57,188 bases of DNA, from positions 1 to 57,188 of IMG/VR virus record IMGVR_UViG_3300032236_000645, one strand, 5' to 3'. A program made the translations under genes and the position numbers. Below, one piece after another: positions 147-5,985 of the stretch. Below the pieces are notes generated by a model, which searched no databases, was not told the DNA's origin, and was given only the letters and a program-made list of their open reading frames with translations. The first letter of the stretch is position 1. Each line of letters begins with the position of its first letter. The stretch is from a virus.

Positions 147-225
147 GGGCTTCAAGCTTAAACCTGGTATAAGCACTCGGCTCATAACCGAAAGACAGAG
201 GGTTCGAATCCCTCGGGGCCCACCA
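147..225 (+). tRNA. tRNA with CAT anticodon (Met, or Ile if lysidine-modified)
   Basis: A full cloverleaf can be drawn. The acceptor arms are 147-153 and 215-221 (seven pairs with two G-U). The D stem is GCTT/AAGC, the anticodon loop CTCATAA at 181-187, and the T arm GAGGG-TTCGAAT-CCCTC at 198-214. Discriminator A222 is followed by an encoded CCA (223-225). The outermost anticodon-stem pair (176/192) is a C-A mismatch. The anticodon CAT reads AUG as tRNA-Met; it could instead be a tRNA-Ile2 whose C34 becomes lysidine, which needs a covariance model to decide. It lies two bases from the stop codon of the convergent cyclase gene. Confidence 0.9.
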
Positions 226-227
226 AA

Positions 228-2264
228 TTATTTACTAGTTGCTCTGTAAGTGCCATCCCAATTTTCTGGTTTGCCTTCTTCCATACGCTCTATCATATTA
301 GCATAGTATTGGCGCATTTCTGGTGGTGATGTCTTAGTTAATTGTTTAGCTAAGAATATTGCGCCACCTTCGTCCCAATTACCATCATAATACGCTTTCA
401 AATATTTCTTATGTAGTTTGTAATGGTCTTCGTGATATGTTGCTAAAGTGAATATTTTAACACCTTCTTTTTTACCTTTAACAGCAATACAGTCTAATTC
501 TATAACAGGATATTCATCTTTTACTTGCTCTGCTGTGTCTGACCCGAGGACCATTTTGACACCGTATGGCTTACTTTGTCCTTCAAGGCGTGAGGCGAGA
601 TTAACCGAATCTCCGAGGCAGGTGTAGTCAAAACGCTGACTAGAACCCATATTACCAACCACAACAGTGCCTGTATTAATGCCGAGTCCCATACCAAACG
701 CAGGTATGCCCTCTTTCTCAATCTCCTTGTTAAACGCATCTAAACTCTCCATCATTTCTAAGGCAGTCTTTACCGCCATCTTGGCATGGTTTGGTTCATC
801 TAAAGGTGCGTTCCAAAATGCCATTTGTGCATCACCAATATACTTATCCAAAGTTCCATTATTTTCTATTATTTTTGCGGTCATTGCAGTCATATAACGG
901 TTCATAATTTGCGTTAGACCTTGAACATCTTTTCCATAGTGTTCCGAAATTGTAGTGAAACCACGAACATCGGTAAACATAATAGATAATTCTCTACTTT
1001 CACCACCAAGTTTAAGTAACTCTGGATTCTTTTGAAGTTTTTCAACCAAAGCAGGTGATAGATATGTGCCAAATTGTTTTTTAATTTGTAACTTTTGATT
1101 TAACTCTGTAATGAATTTTACGGTGTATGCGTGTGCATAAACCAATACAATAGAAAGAATAGGATAAGTGACATCCACCAAAATGTTTTGCTTATTAAAT
1201 AGAAATAAGCTAGCATAAATGCTACCAGCAACAATGCCAAATATGCCCAAATATCCATGTTTCCAACGTGTCAAATAAATCGCTAATATAGAAAGAACAA
1301 TAATACCTAAAATTTCTGCACCATCTGCCCAATCTGGACGTTGTATATTTATACCATTAGCAATTGTTCCAATAAGTGATGCTTGAATGTCTTGTGGATA
1401 AACAGCACCAACTGCAGTTGATAATGGATTACTGAGACCGGCAGCGGAAACTCCAACTATAACAATTGAACCACCAAAGTCTTTAGGTAAATCAACAGCG
1501 GAGACTGATTGTGATTTTTGTGACCAGTCAACCCACACACGACCAAGAGCATCTGTTGATATAGGACCAAATTTAGGAATACGCATCTTTTCTACACCAC
1601 CTTCAAATAGTTTTACTTGAATAGTGGAATCACCAGAAGCAACTCTTAATGTTTCTAATGCTAAGTTTGGATATACTTTACCGTTGTATGTTGAAACTAA
1701 TGGAATTCTACGATTAACACCATCTAGTTCTGGTAATGTATTAGTTGAACCAACACCAGCGGCCGCTTCTTCCAATTCGGGAATATTCGCAATTACACCA
1801 GTATACTGGATGATTTGATTCATGTAGTCTGAACCAATAATAGCAGAACCTGGACTCTTTGGTGTGTTTTTGGTTACATTAGAAGGTGTGTTAGCGATAA
1901 CAACTGGATGATTTTTGAATACGGATGTTAACGCTGAGTCACCACCAAGTCTATCTTTTTCAGGCATCAATACATTAAATACAACTAAACCGGCATTATG
2001 TTTGTATAGGTCTTCAATTAGATTGGCATAGACTTGACGATTGAAAGGCCATTGGCCATATTTGTCTAATGTCTTTTCATCAATATTGACTGTGTAGATA
2101 TTGTTTTGTGTTGGTGCTTTTTGTGTGATTAAGGTATCAAAGTACCGTAATTTGATTGACTCTACAAATGTTGGATCATTAAAACGGACAACTACTAGAA
2201 GTGATAGTGTTGCTAATGCTGTCCATGGATTGAGTAGAATCTTTGTTATTTTCTTCAAGTTCAT
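228..2264 (-). CDS. CHASE2-domain class III adenylate cyclase, membrane-bound
   Basis: Predicted to make cAMP from ATP in response to a periplasmic signal. Residue numbers count from the in-frame ATG at 2270. There is one N-terminal TM helix (about 12-30), a periplasmic CHASE2 sensor (about 35-310), three TM helices (about 318-386) and a C-terminal catalytic domain (about 425-610). All catalytic residues are visible: metal-binding D434 in FTDVRGFT and D480 in KYIGD, adenine-selecting K476 and T550, and transition-state N557 and R561. The K/T pair favours adenylate over guanylate cyclase. The start at 2264 is chosen because AAAGG sits 8 nt before it, but only 2 nt before the ATG at 2270. It is the last gene of the curli-like operon, 21 bp after the FecR gene. 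CHASE2 cyclases beside FecR proteins are known in bacteria; one in a phage late operon is unusual. Confidence 0.92.
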   Translation of the reverse strand: MNLKKITKILLNPWTALATLSLLVVVRFNDPTFVESIKLRYFDTLITQKAPTQNNIYTVNIDEKTLDKYGQWPFNRQVYANLIEDLYKHNAGLVVFNVLMPEKDRLGGDSALTSVFKNHPVVIANTPSNVTKNTPKSPGSAIIGSDYMNQIIQYTGVIANIPELEEAAAGVGSTNTLPELDGVNRRIPLVSTYNGKVYPNLALETLRVASGDSTIQVKLFEGGVEKMRIPKFGPISTDALGRVWVDWSQKSQSVSAVDLPKDFGGSIVIVGVSAAGLSNPLSTAVGAVYPQDIQASLIGTIANGINIQRPDWADGAEILGIIVLSILAIYLTRWKHGYLGIFGIVAGSIYASLFLFNKQNILVDVTYPILSIVLVYAHAYTVKFITELNQKLQIKKQFGTYLSPALVEKLQKNPELLKLGGESRELSIMFTDVRGFTTISEHYGKDVQGLTQIMNRYMTAMTAKIIENNGTLDKYIGDAQMAFWNAPLDEPNHAKMAVKTALEMMESLDAFNKEIEKEGIPAFGMGLGINTGTVVVGNMGSSQRFDYTCLGDSVNLASRLEGQSKPYGVKMVLGSDTAEQVKDEYPVIELDCIAVKGKKEGVKIFTLATYHEDHYKLHKKYLKAYYDGNWDEGGAIFLAKQLTKTSPPEMRQYYANMIERMEEGKPENWDGTYRATSK

Positions 2265-2285
2265 AACCATATCCTTTATGAGTTA

Positions 2286-3383
2286 TTATTTTATGTTTTG
2301 CCTTATTGTAATATAACCTTGTGGTTTATTTGCAAATTGAAATACATCCATAACCAAATCTTGTATTACCACAATTTGGACTAAAGAATCCTTTGGTAAT
2401 ATAATATTTGCTTCTTGACCTTTTGAGTCGGATACACCAAAATATTTCCAACCAGTTAAAACTTGTTTCTCATAAATTGGCGTAACTCGTGTGCTTTCTG
2501 CTGTTAATTCCTCTACTGATTTTTGTATAATTGGAACAACTTTAACTACTTGATTATCAACTTTATTTGTGCTTTGTTGAGCAATCTGTGATTCTTGTTC
2601 AGCATTTGCACCTGAAACACCAGTAGATGGTGTATTATTCTTTTCTGCCGACTTTTCTTGTGATGATTTTTGAGCATCTTTGATTGCATCACGTGCAGCT
2701 GTTACTAACGAAGCGCCACCTTCAGTTTTGGGTGGAACAACTTGCATATTATTACTAACTTGACGAGAATCGAATCTAATCAAAGTTGGCATTGGAGGTG
2801 AATTGCCTGAAGATTCTACAACCGTTGCTTGATATGGTTTATTCATAACAACTGCACCAGCTGGCGTTACTACTTCAATTTCACCAGATTTACAAGTTAA
2901 CGCCTCGATACTTAAATTAGTGTCATCACATTGAGGCATTAATACAATAATAGAACGACCAATTTCATCTACAGACATAACAAAGTCAGTACCTCGAACG
3001 GCAATAGTGGCTGTTGGAGTATTTATTTTAACATTATTGGGGTTTTCGTGAGCTACTGCACCTGAAGCGTACCGAACGGTACCGAGGGCGACTTTCATGG
3101 CTAATTTACCAGTACCCTTAGATTTTGGATCATATACAAAATCATCAATAACTAATTTAGAATTTTCAGTAACACTAACCTTAGTATCATCCACAAAAGT
3201 GATACTTGTTTTACCTTTACCGGTCACAACAATATCCAACATCTCTACCGAAGCACCTTTGGTACTAGGTAGAGAATTCTTTTGTCGTTGAATATTACTT
3301 GAACCTTCTTGTTCAGTTATTGTTCCAACAGCCGAATAAACAATAGTTGGAATAACCAATAACAATAACGCAAGATATTTCAT
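2286..3383 (-). CDS. secreted FecR-domain protein
   Basis: 365 aa with a signal peptide (about residues 1-18, ending VYSA), so it should be periplasmic. A FecR domain spans about 40-140, with the family signature TPTATIAVRGTDF near 125-138. A Ser/Gln/Asn-rich low-complexity stretch (about 230-280) links to a C-terminal region that ends in a small beta-rich segment. FecR domains act as periplasmic sensors or scaffolds and often sit beside CHASE2-containing kinases or cyclases. Here the gene overlaps the curlin-like stop codon by one base (TAATG), so translation is probably coupled. I infer that it links the state of the CsgG/curlin export machine to the CHASE2 cyclase encoded next. It could instead be a structural part of the secreted assembly. 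Confidence 0.82.
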   Translation of the reverse strand: MKYLALLLLVIPTIVYSAVGTITEQEGSSNIQRQKNSLPSTKGASVEMLDIVVTGKGKTSITFVDDTKVSVTENSKLVIDDFVYDPKSKGTGKLAMKVALGTVRYASGAVAHENPNNVKINTPTATIAVRGTDFVMSVDEIGRSIIVLMPQCDDTNLSIEALTCKSGEIEVVTPAGAVVMNKPYQATVVESSGNSPPMPTLIRFDSRQVSNNMQVVPPKTEGGASLVTAARDAIKDAQKSSQEKSAEKNNTPSTGVSGANAEQESQIAQQSTNKVDNQVVKVVPIIQKSVEELTAESTRVTPIYEKQVLTGWKYFGVSDSKGQEANIILPKDSLVQIVVIQDLVMDVFQFANKPQGYITIRQNIK

Positions 3384-4144
3384 TAGTTCGTTTGGCGAAC
3401 CACAAATGACCCGTTATTACTTACTGATTTAATATTAATCACATTGTCAACTGTACCAGTTTGTGACATAGTAAAATCATTATGTGTACCAATTAAATCA
3501 ACAGCAATAGAATGGCCAGATGCACCACCATTTAGTTGTGTTACATTGAATGTGTTATAATCACCAGTAACATTTAAGTTTTGTGTAGCTTTAGGTGCTT
3601 GTACATTGAAATTAAAATAGTTGTGGTCACCAGTTACATCAATACCTGAATTTTGATTTGTACCGCCACCATTGTAATACATTGTATTGTTATTACCTGT
3701 AAATCTCCAATTAAACACAGAACTATCACAGTTAGCATTAGTACCAGCGCCACAATTAAAGTCAAGGTAGTTTGAATTACCTAATTGTTGAATTGTTGTA
3801 TTGATACCAACGGTTGCACCATAGATGCTACCGTAAATAGAATTGTTATTACCAGTTTGGATTGATACTAATGTTTGGTTATCACCTCTTAATTTGAAGT
3901 AATTTGAACCAACACCCAATACATTAGAAGAACCTGTTTGAGTAATATTGATGTCTGGATTGCCACCAGATTGGTCAATATACACTTTATTGGTTGAAGT
4001 TTCCGCTGCTGATGTCACCTCATTTGGTGTATCTGCTGGAATTGCCGGTACTACCGGACTTGGTGGCAATACCACTGCTGGGTCTGCCGCAATCGCTTGT
4101 GTTGCTAATAACGAAAACATTACTATTGCTAGTAACTTTTTCAT
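3383..4144 (-). CDS. curlin-like (CsgA/CsgB-type) secreted repeat protein
   Basis: 253 aa with a signal peptide (about 1-20, ending AIAA) and a Pro/Ala-rich linker (about 20-45). The rest is rich in Asn, Gln, Gly, Thr and Ser. Repeats of about 20-24 residues match the curlin pattern in which a Q-x-G-x-x-N turn follows an alternating hydrophilic strand: ITQTGSSN, IQTGNNN, QQLGNSN, TGDHN, TGDYN, IGTHN, SQTGTVDN. Such repeats form the amyloid beta-solenoid of curli. It lies 3 bp from csgG and directly upstream of the FecR gene. The repeats are more degenerate than in E. coli CsgA, so it may form a different solenoid. Its linkage to CsgG and CsgF makes it their likely substrate. Confidence 0.82.
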   Translation of the reverse strand: MKKLLAIVMFSLLATQAIAADPAVVLPPSPVVPAIPADTPNEVTSAAETSTNKVYIDQSGGNPDINITQTGSSNVLGVGSNYFKLRGDNQTLVSIQTGNNNSIYGSIYGATVGINTTIQQLGNSNYLDFNCGAGTNANCDSSVFNWRFTGNNNTMYYNGGGTNQNSGIDVTGDHNYFNFNVQAPKATQNLNVTGDYNTFNVTQLNGGASGHSIAVDLIGTHNDFTMSQTGTVDNVINIKSVSNNGSFVVRQTN

Positions 4145-4147
4145 TTA

Positions 4148-4936
4148 CTACTCTCCTTTATGTTTAAACTTCCAAAGTTTTTTAGTTTCACCTTGTTTAA
4201 TTAATTCCACAATACCTTTTTCAATTGCAGCTCTTGTTGCATATTGAATTGGCTCATTGTAAGTCTGTGAAGCATCAATTTCTAATGCTTTTGTTCCTGT
4301 GTCGTAAAATTTCATAACAGTTGTTCCATCACCAGTTGACAGAATATTCTTTTCAATTGTTACTGAAGCTAAAACTTCACCAGTTTGTACAGACACTAAT
4401 CTCATATTAATAGTCACTTGGTCCTGGCTGTATTGAGTATAAGGACCAATTCCTAATAATCTAATACCTGCCCCACCCGTTCTTGTATTACTATCATACC
4501 CGATAATACCACCTTCTAAAATTATACCAGCAAATAATAGTGGAGGTAATTCTTGTTTGTCGCCAAATTGTTCTCTCATTTGGCGAATAATCTGTCTTTC
4601 TTTAATTAAGTTATCTAAACCACCACGTTCAGTAACTCTAAACCATTTACCATTTCCAACATCTTGTAATGCTTTAACAACATAAGCATCAGCACCTTGT
4701 GTTACGGCAGTTGAGAATAATGATAATGTTGTTGAAGGTTTTCTTTGTCCTGTTTTGTCAGTAAATGTATAAACAGCAATAGTAATTGGTTGACCTTCAG
4801 GTTCAGCAATATTATTAAACTCACTTACAACAGGTTTTGATATTTCTGAATCACTGCGAATATCAACATCTTGTAATGGTCTAACAGAAGAACATCCAGA
4901 TAATAATATAAAAATTAATATTAATAGTTTTTTCAT
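4148..4936 (-). CDS. csgG: CsgG-like outer-membrane curli secretion channel lipoprotein
   Basis: 262 aa from ATG 4936. A TTG six codons upstream is in frame but would spoil the signal peptide; an AGAGATGAT stretch precedes ATG 4936. A lipobox (LLSGC) ends the signal peptide, giving an acylated Cys for outer-membrane anchoring. Family motifs are clear: IAVYTFTDKTGQRKP near 55, STAVTQGADAYVVKAL near 82, then ERGGLDNLIKERQIIRQMR near 108, followed by the beta-barrel-forming regions. Length agrees with E. coli CsgG (277 aa precursor). The channel exports curlin subunits as an oligomeric pore. It lies between csgF and the curlin-like gene with gaps of 3-7 bp. CsgG homologues are, as I recall, known from some marine T4-like phages. 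Confidence 0.93.
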   Translation of the reverse strand: MKKLLILIFILLSGCSSVRPLQDVDIRSDSEISKPVVSEFNNIAEPEGQPITIAVYTFTDKTGQRKPSTTLSLFSTAVTQGADAYVVKALQDVGNGKWFRVTERGGLDNLIKERQIIRQMREQFGDKQELPPLLFAGIILEGGIIGYDSNTRTGGAGIRLLGIGPYTQYSQDQVTINMRLVSVQTGEVLASVTIEKNILSTGDGTTVMKFYDTGTKALEIDASQTYNEPIQYATRAAIEKGIVELIKQGETKKLWKFKHKGE

Positions 4937-4943
4937 ATCATCT

Positions 4944-5441
4944 CTAAAAAGCAAATTGAGCTATAGGCACTGAAACATATGTTTTATTACCAGCAGCATC
5001 TACCACTGTTAATTGAACATCTGTTGCGGTTTTTAACCAAGTAACCGTACTACCATCTAATGAAAAATTACCAGTAACGGGACCAGAACAACCAGAAATA
5101 GGTGCACCGTCCGTACCTTTACAATTATTTTGAAATAAATTATTACTTAATTGAGTAGCAAGTTGAGCGTACACTTGACTCGAAAATAATGACATGAATT
5201 TTGCCAATGGTGTATTTTGTGCTGCCGCGGCAGCTGCTGCGGCTCGTGCAGCTGCTTGATTTTCAAGAGCTTGTTTAGCTGATTGTTCAGCTTGATAAAC
5301 TGTTAATACTTGGGTTGTCCAACCGCCATTATTGTTGAAGGATGGATCTTTAAATTGTTGTTGAATTTCAGTTGCGGACGCAACACTATTCAGGCTCAGA
5401 ATTGCGATTACGCTTATTGACAGTCTTTTTATTTGGATCAT
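4944..5441 (-). CDS. csgF: CsgF-like curli assembly factor
   Basis: 165 aa, signal peptide about 1-23 (ends ASAT). The mature start contains FKDPSFNNNGGW, matching the CsgF hallmark F-x-N-P-x-F-G-G that plugs the CsgG channel and narrows its exit. A following helix includes VYAQLATQLSNNLF, and the C-terminus DVQLTVVDAAGNKTYV resembles the CsgF C-terminal strands. Unusual additions are a polyalanine-rich helix (about 66-76) and a pair of Cys (NNCKG, SGCSG) that may form a disulfide. It starts inside the preceding gene (56-bp overlap) behind GAGAG and ends 7 bp before csgG. The linkage to csgG supports the assignment. Confidence 0.85.
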   Translation of the reverse strand: MIQIKRLSISVIAILSLNSVASATEIQQQFKDPSFNNNGGWTTQVLTVYQAEQSAKQALENQAAARAAAAAAAAQNTPLAKFMSLFSSQVYAQLATQLSNNLFQNNCKGTDGAPISGCSGPVTGNFSLDGSTVTWLKTATDVQLTVVDAAGNKTYVSVPIAQFAF

Positions 5442-5673
5442 TTTCTTGCTCTCTCAACATCAATACGATGTTTATTTTCTGATTTAATCTTATCAAATCA
5501 TTATCTAACATACGTACACGGTCTATCAAAGCAATTAAAACGGTATTAGCTTCTGACAATACAGGTTTAATTTCCTGTGTTGCCCATTTCCAAACATAAA
5601 ATATAAGATATCCCATGCCACCGGCAGCAACAATTGGGAAACCGTACTTATTAACTAAATCTACTACATCCAT
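5386..5673 (-). CDS. small one-TM coiled-coil protein, holin-like topology (copy 2)
   Basis: 95 aa. A short amphipathic N-terminus precedes one TM helix (about 12-32), a helical region with ALIDRVRMLDNDLIRLNQK, and a basic/polar tail. It is a paralogue of the gene just upstream: both share the GFPI start, the TM position and the helix with D-R/N-R-V-x-x-(L/M)-(D/N). It overlaps that gene by one base (TAATG) and overlaps csgF by 56 bp, so the three are translationally coupled. The topology recalls BhlA/UviB holin-like proteins; similar small proteins occur in marine T4-like phages. Whether it makes holes, anchors the curli machine or does something else is unknown. Confidence 0.75.
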   Translation of the reverse strand: MDVVDLVNKYGFPIVAAGGMGYLIFYVWKWATQEIKPVLSEANTVLIALIDRVRMLDNDLIRLNQKINIVLMLREQENDPNKKTVNKRNRNSEPE

Positions 5674-5951
5674 TAATCTCTCCTCGCATCGTTTTTACCA
5701 TCAGCACGAGCAATACGGTCTACGTCAGGTTTAACACCCATTGCGTTAGACATTAATGTATCAATACGAATAACATCATGGTTCATGGTCTTGACACGGT
5801 TATCTAAAGCCGTTATAATCCCACTTAAACCTTTTACTGAACTCATTACTCCAGCAAGGATAAATTTTAATGTTAGAAACACAAAGTATCCACCAGCCAT
5901 TGCAGCAGCAATTGGAAAACCTAATTCAGCAACTAATTTAAAAAAGTCCAT
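5673..5951 (-). CDS. small one-TM coiled-coil protein, holin-like topology (copy 1)
   Basis: 92 aa and first gene of the curli-like operon. It has the same plan as its downstream paralogue: short N-terminus with LGFPIAAAMAGGYFVF leading into one TM helix (about 10-34), then a helix containing ALDNRVKTMNHDVIRID, then a charged tail. AAGG lies 8 nt before the ATG, and a T4-late-type CATAAATA element sits about 27 nt upstream (minus strand). Function is unknown. The position suggests the pair is made together with the CsgFG channel, perhaps as inner-membrane partner or as holin. Confidence 0.75.
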   Translation of the reverse strand: MDFFKLVAELGFPIAAAMAGGYFVFLTLKFILAGVMSSVKGLSGIITALDNRVKTMNHDVIRIDTLMSNAMGVKPDVDRIARADGKNDARRD

Positions 5952-5977: not shown

Positions 5978-5985
5978 TATTTATG
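5978..5985 (-). promoter_or_regulatory. T4-type late promoter of the curli-like operon
   Basis: CATAAATA on the minus strand, seven of eight bases matching the T4 late consensus TATAAATA. It is placed so that transcription would start near 5971, about 20 nt before the first ATG. The same CATAAATA sequence precedes the late gene at 19754. Confidence 0.65.

Follow-up and report, generated by a model that had tools for sequence, protein, structure and literature searches.

It has been known since 2020-2022 that ocean phages carry curli-type secretion genes. The closest described system was reported in 2022 as a phage type VIII secretion system (T8SS) module of podo- and myo-Pelagiphages with the order 'HK(1-2)-CsgF-CsgG-CsgA/B-FecR-(CsgA/B)-AC' (HK, histidine kinase; AC, adenylate cyclase); it is distributed worldwide, being present at all 65 GOV2.0 stations, and expression of module genes was detected in ocean metatranscriptomes (PMC9599517). 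Proposals for its function comprise superinfection defence, sibling capture and import (PMC9599517), sibling capture or aggregation with an import pore as a further suggestion (PMC7029224), and control of lysis via a pore in the case of phage Melnitz (PMC9004378). Here, we describe an operon at positions 228-5951 of the IMG/VR virus record IMGVR_UViG_3300032236_000645, which encodes a further case of this known phage system; the window analysed is the whole record of 57,188 bases. The gene set itself is therefore not new. Judged by its sequence, the window phage is T4-like, with a family B DNA polymerase that shares about 51% identity with the polymerases of T4-like cyanophages. We propose, with a probability of roughly 55%, that the module is used late in infection to secrete an adhesive amyloid onto the host cell and that it includes a control unit specific to the phage version.

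The operon consists of the following features, in which 'HolX' is a working label coined in this analysis for a pair of small membrane proteins:

228-2270, minus strand: CHASE2 adenylate cyclase (class III, CyaB-like), 680 aa; Pfam CHASE2 3e-41, Guanylate_cyc 4e-21
2286-3383, minus strand: FecR-domain secreted protein, 365 aa, with a hydrophobic N-terminal segment and a C-terminal five-strand domain; Pfam FecR 1e-9
3383-4144, minus strand: curlin (CsgA/B-type substrate), 253 aa; Pfam Curlin_rpt 2.8e-4, just above the curated cut-off
4148-4936, minus strand: CsgG outer-membrane secretion channel lipoprotein, 262 aa from the ATG at 4936; Pfam CsgG 1.7e-56; lipobox LLSGC
4944-5441, minus strand: CsgF, 165 aa; Pfam CsgF 2.2e-7, over the curated cut-off
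5386-5673, minus strand: HolXb, small membrane protein, 95 aa; phrog_18771 1.5e-34
5673-5951, minus strand: HolXa, small protein with one transmembrane (TM) segment, 92 aa, paralogue of HolXb; phrog_18771 4.3e-34
5978-5985, minus strand: T4-type late promoter element CATAAATA, recognised by sequence, 26 nt upstream of the HolXa ATG at 5951

An earlier annotation made from the letters alone (the sequence-only reading) had described seven minus-strand genes behind a T4-type late element and had named CsgF, CsgG, a curlin-like protein, a FecR protein and a CHASE2 cyclase among their products. All seven consecutive open reading frames (ORFs) were indeed found, the late element is in place, and Pfam and profile matches support each of these identities. 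The largest gap is 15 bp, located between the cyclase and FecR genes, and overlaps reach 56 bp. FecR and curlin overlap by 1 bp, curlin and CsgG are separated by 3 bp, and CsgG and CsgF by 7 bp if CsgG starts at ATG 4936 (with the TTG at 4954 called by the gene finder, they overlap by 11 bp). CsgF and HolXb overlap by 56 bp, and HolXb and HolXa by 1 bp. Among relatives of the window, ATAAATA was counted within -120..+10 of each gene start; it precedes 95 of 166 HolXa genes compared with 10.3% of 2,862 other ORFs, but only 1/163 HolXb, 0/145 CsgG and 0/136 FecR genes. It was also found ahead of 23 of the 126 cyclase genes and of CsgF in 34/69 cases in which CsgF leads the unit versus 11/76 with HolX just upstream. 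The late element thus marks where the unit begins rather than its internal genes (CsgG, FecR, HolXb), which is one of the additions of this analysis, and the module is predicted to be expressed late, from this element.

The same order, from two small genes to the CHASE2 cyclase, is found in the Pelagiphages HTVC008M (I899_gp011-019) and Melnitz (gp97-104) and in relatives, as was revealed by the gene-order search in phage and metagenome contigs that the sequence-only reading had proposed. Its statement that CsgG-like genes occur in some aquatic T4-like phages holds for both phages; the full combination had already been published as well (PMC9599517). The window proteins are about 27-64% identical to their counterparts in HTVC008M and Melnitz. 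Both phages carry a second curlin before the cyclase, which the window lacks, and the HTVC008M operon is located between the region of the ssDNA-binding protein and the tape measure, whereas the window operon adjoins the DNA polymerase gene. The published description of Melnitz calls the phage csgA/csgB-less (PMC9004378); contrary to that text, the Melnitz record itself lists a FecR protein and two proteins with curlin repeats. A further mismatch concerns the histidine kinase. The window has the small gene(s)-CsgF-CsgG-CsgA/B-FecR-AC order of the Pelagiphage module, but no histidine kinase upstream of CsgF. The kinase label was rejected for the small genes, as none of 16 members matched a Pfam kinase domain at E values up to 1 and the window proteins have only 92-95 aa. 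Judged from their position, the HolX genes are probably those named HK in PMC9599517; we therefore still assign the operon to the Pelagiphage T8SS module and regard the kinase name as a likely error in the labelling of these genes.

In viral contigs, a scan with CsgG yielded at least 584 relatives, the best 80 of which were kept. In the 33 of these loci with at least 7 kb on each side, CsgF, FecR and the cyclase are present in 33/33 and both HolX genes in 31/33; the relatives were picked for their resemblance to the window and some are nearly identical phages, so that these counts are not independent events. The two loci without HolX (L055 and L057) have identical gene coordinates, with the cyclase about 7 kb downstream of CsgG, and their HolX genes may lie beyond the fetched edge.

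The window encodes three parts of a type VIII (curli) secretion system, namely a CsgG lipoprotein channel, CsgF and a curlin-repeat substrate. The sequence from the CsgG ATG at 4936 (MKKLLILIFILLSGC) contains the lipobox. For CsgF, the Pfam score reaches 4.7e-16 in relatives, and the conserved motif F-K-x-P-A-F-S-G aligns with the N-terminus of E. coli CsgF, albeit with a weak match (E 0.016). The curlin assignment is marginal from Pfam alone but firm at the level of sequence profiles: an alignment of relatives matches the curlin-repeat structure 8c50 at 2.5e-15 and E. coli CsgA (8enq) at 2.6e-6. Furthermore, GxxN motifs are spaced 22, 23 or 11 residues apart and number 8.3 per protein compared with 3.3 in shuffled sequence, and invariant Gln/Gly positions are kept across loci. 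The AlphaFold model of the curlin is a confident all-beta chain, mostly with a pLDDT of 80-97 from residue 51 on. A 1.5-kb 'Salmonella phage' match to CsgG was set aside because its contig has low coverage and is neither annotated nor verified.

An adhesive fibre finds its strongest new argument in the interval between the FecR and cyclase genes, in which relatives hold 0 to 6 extra ORFs. Among 79 proteins encoded there, Pfam detects Curlin_rpt in 16, PA14 in 7, F5/8 type C in 6 and GLEYA in 3. PA14 and Curlin_rpt are found on a single chain in HTVC008M gp018 and in locus L009, and locus L184 combines F5/8-C with a sub-threshold curlin repeat. PA14 and F5/8-C domains commonly bind carbohydrates. 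Since many relatives fuse the second curlin to a PA14 or F5/8-C head, these sequences favour an adhesive fibre over a lysis pore. PA14 is not mentioned in PMC9599517, and a limited literature search found no link between PA14 and phage curlins. Genes for glycosyltransferases, calcineurin-like phosphoesterases (metallophosphoesterases) and RimK-type ATP-grasp proteins also recur in this interval, e.g., in L154, L173, L264 and L268. In L270 (15477-17825, minus strand), the protein in second position carries F5/8-C plus an autotransporter beta-barrel domain, suggesting another export route.

The HolX proteins are a further point that is new in this analysis. HolXa has one hydrophobic segment, near residues 14-32, and the sequence-only reading had called both proteins holin-like one-TM proteins. 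They are indeed small one-TM paralogues, but the similarity to holins is weak (phrog_4898, E 4.5e-4 to 9e-4, over about 20 residues), and a pair dedicated to the T8SS fits better. With holins and YvrJ-type small membrane proteins they share a G-F-P-I motif and a single hydrophobic segment at the N-terminus, the YvrJ match being weak (0.05); unlike these, HolX occurs just with the T8SS module, and membership in either family is not established. The HolX profile found nothing in the PDB beyond coiled-coil-type chance matches. In a tblastn search of 50,697 phage records, either HolX matched only HTVC008M and four Melnitz isolates, both CsgG-bearing phages, which disfavours a generic T4-like holin. 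Scans anchored on HolX gave 69 loci flanked by at least 7 kb on each side, of which 56 contain CsgG and the other 13 the cyclase; CsgG was subsequently found in all nine records searched behind those 13 loci. A third scan with the HTVC008M HolX protein as query found CsgG in 50/50 loci with room downstream; each scan covered the best 80 matches, and more distant relatives may lack the module. In many loci, the pair is located beyond the cyclase and convergent to the operon. HolX thus travels with the module even outside a shared transcript, and every checkable HolX locus is linked to the module. We read the pair as a putative dedicated membrane component of the T8SS module; being so strictly linked, it merits a name.

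The profile of the cyclase matches cyclase structures such as CyaB (3r5g, 6e-40). The claim of a catalytically intact enzyme agrees with the window sequence, which has the class III residues D434, K476, D480, T550, N557 and R561. All 49 phage homologues keep the metal-binding Asp434 and Asp480 and the base-contacting Lys476, and Arg561, a transition-state residue like Asn557, is present in all 48 that cover the position. At positions 550/557, the phage cyclases have T-N in 14 cases, S-N in 10, D-S in 22 and D-N in 2. T-N, the pattern of the window, is that of class IIIb, and Thr550 suggests class IIIb adenylate specificity. The Melnitz cyclase has D-S, and its activity is uncertain. Of the 24 copies across the family that have Asp at the adenine position, 22 also have Ser in place of the transition-state Asn, which is retained in every copy with Thr or Ser; this could possibly reflect a changed substrate or activity. 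Many phage cyclases differ in this respect from the bacterial CHASE2 class III cyclases (CyaB-like), which have the same domain order and catalytic domain and are sometimes encoded beside FecR. Among 60 Pelagibacter-family genomes, many of them possibly incomplete and the window's own host possibly being a different one, class I cyclases were found in none, class III cyclases in two, both on phage modules (L091/L095 contig; HolX-CsgF-CsgG-FecR-AC module), and a CRP-type receptor (searched as PF00027) in two. Thus, the phage appears to supply Pelagibacter-family hosts with a messenger that they do not make themselves and for which they mostly lack a CRP-type reader.

For the FecR protein, AlphaFold predicts (pLDDT 79) an N-terminal FecR domain and a separate C-terminal five-strand unit ending with an invariant Gln. 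Foldseek matched the whole model to the PupR signalling domain (6ovk, 1.2e-4) and to an adhesin cell-surface anchoring domain (5ix9, 6.9e-4); the FecR profile had no match among PDB sequences. The protein differs from anti-sigma FecR proteins in its signal-peptide-like start and in having no separate N-terminal anti-sigma domain, and the operon encodes neither a sigma-factor nor a TonB partner for it. According to the model, a periplasmic sensor or fibre anchor is plausible. The C-terminus forms an I-x-I-x-Q strand with the invariant Gln (Q362 of the window protein), which resembles the curlin C-terminus, and the protein might join or cap the fibre.

The proposed function builds on the identities of the parts, their order, the late element, the conservation and linkage and the adhesin-type heads. 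CsgG and CsgF would form an outer-membrane channel late in infection, through which the curlin would be exported to build an amyloid fibre on the surface of the infected cell. This fibre is most likely an adhesin, because the second curlin of many relatives bears a sugar-binding-type head, and could alter the adhesion of the infected cell or its debris, either to neighbouring hosts (sibling capture) or as a coat against rival phages. FecR, the CHASE2 cyclase and the HolX pair would form a conserved, phage-specific unit for control or assembly; as a working guess, the periplasmic FecR and CHASE2 domains may report the status of secretion or of the fibre, which the cyclase would convert to a cyclic-nucleotide signal. 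A more far-reaching version, in which a self-contained amyloid adhesin with a sugar-binding head is regulated by the phage's own second messenger in hosts otherwise without cyclic-AMP signalling, FecR and CHASE2 act as periplasmic sensors of secretion and HolXa/b are the missing inner-membrane part or effector, is tentative and rather improbable as a whole. Several observations weigh against the adhesive amyloid. Melnitz-infected cells were not seen to clump (PMC9004378), and the window has no second curlin with a sugar-binding head between FecR and the cyclase. Pfam found no CsgE among the seven operon products, and none is described in PMC9599517 either, which leaves gating unexplained; the gate may be supplied by the host or be an analogous protein. 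A PF00027 receptor was found neither in HTVC008M nor in Melnitz nor in three further viral records, so that the signalling step has no target there. Finally, the structure searches suggested by the sequence-only reading gave a divided result: the curlin profile matches CsgA structures, but a Foldseek search of the curlin model against the PDB found no significant match (best E 0.28; CsgA 8enq 0.99). The latter search is uninformative, neither proving nor refuting the curlin identity.

The sequence-only reading had offered a lysis pore, a surface amyloid and control of host cAMP as possible purposes, of which the surface amyloid, in its adhesive form, is best supported. A coat against superinfection, in which the amyloid masks receptors of the infected cell instead of catching hosts (PMC9599517), has the same anatomy, and the glycosyltransferase and RimK-type genes that are frequent between FecR and the cyclase would be consistent with surface remodelling; it is nevertheless a doubtful alternative, as sugar-binding-type heads suggest binding rather than masking and late expression would leave little time to profit from exclusion. 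We consider it unlikely that CsgG, with or without CsgF, and the small pair time lysis by depolarising or opening the envelope in the manner of pinholins or secretins, with the curlin being vestigial. The weak similarity of the small pair to holins and the late element of the unit agree with such a pore, as proposed for Melnitz (PMC9004378), but the small genes are absent from other T4-like phages, which also need holins, the curlin is kept with its invariant Gln/Gly positions and spacing, and the heads of second curlins vary. Conserved curlin substrates would stay unexplained, which disfavours the pore. Moreover, CsgG is an outer-membrane protein and by itself cannot depolarise the inner membrane.

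The intact catalytic residues of the window cyclase, together with the control of E. coli csgD by cAMP-CRP (literature cited in PMC9599517), would suit a cyclase that raises host cAMP and reprogrammes host transcription via CRP. Since the Pelagibacter-family genomes contain few CRP-type receptors and no cyclase of the host's own, and all five phage records lack PF00027, hijacking of a host cAMP-CRP regulon is very unlikely in this family, and control of host cAMP as a regulatory signal is thus improbable, at least for SAR11 hosts. Least probable of all is an import pore in which CsgG admits cofactors or siderophores for phage production (PMC9599517, PMC7029224); it would leave the curlin, CsgF and the adhesin-type heads unexplained, and FecR, as noted above, lacks a sigma-factor or TonB partner within the operon. 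For phage curli modules, which are abundant in the ocean, the options are thus narrowed, a real substrate and adhesin-type heads favouring a surface fibre, and both the HolX pair and the apparent supply of a messenger that Pelagibacter-family hosts do not make and mostly do not read can be addressed in the cultured phages HTVC008M and Melnitz.

Bacterial curli systems (csgBAC/csgDEFG; E. coli, Alphaproteobacteria) have the CsgG channel, CsgF and curlin repeats in common with the phage unit, in which CsgE, CsgC and CsgD were not found. In five alphaproteobacterial CsgF loci, curlins accompany CsgF/CsgG, but FecR, cyclase and HolX are absent within about 10 kb, in agreement with PMC9599517; nor do CHASE2 cyclases lie beside the curli genes in these loci. 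Inheritance of the whole module from a single bacterial operon was thus not seen. A phage-type FecR adjoins a CHASE2 cyclase in 3/30 alphaproteobacterial loci, in two of them upstream on the same strand, which fits an origin of the module from a merger of a curli unit and a FecR-cyclase pair, three cases being few. Phage-type T8SS modules were also observed in bacterial bins of metagenome-assembled genomes (Rhodobacteraceae, Flavobacteriaceae, Pelagibacter; L085, L086, L088, L091, L361). The contigs L085, L086, L088 and L091 are most likely phage DNA in bins rather than bacterial operons, and such modules give rise to false 'bacterial' curli operons. The window also carries a tRNA gene at 147-222 (plus strand), directly beyond the stop codon of the cyclase gene and opposite to it in orientation, which was missed by ARAGORN and is detected by Rfam (RF00005, 52.3 bits), with a CAT anticodon assigned by eye.

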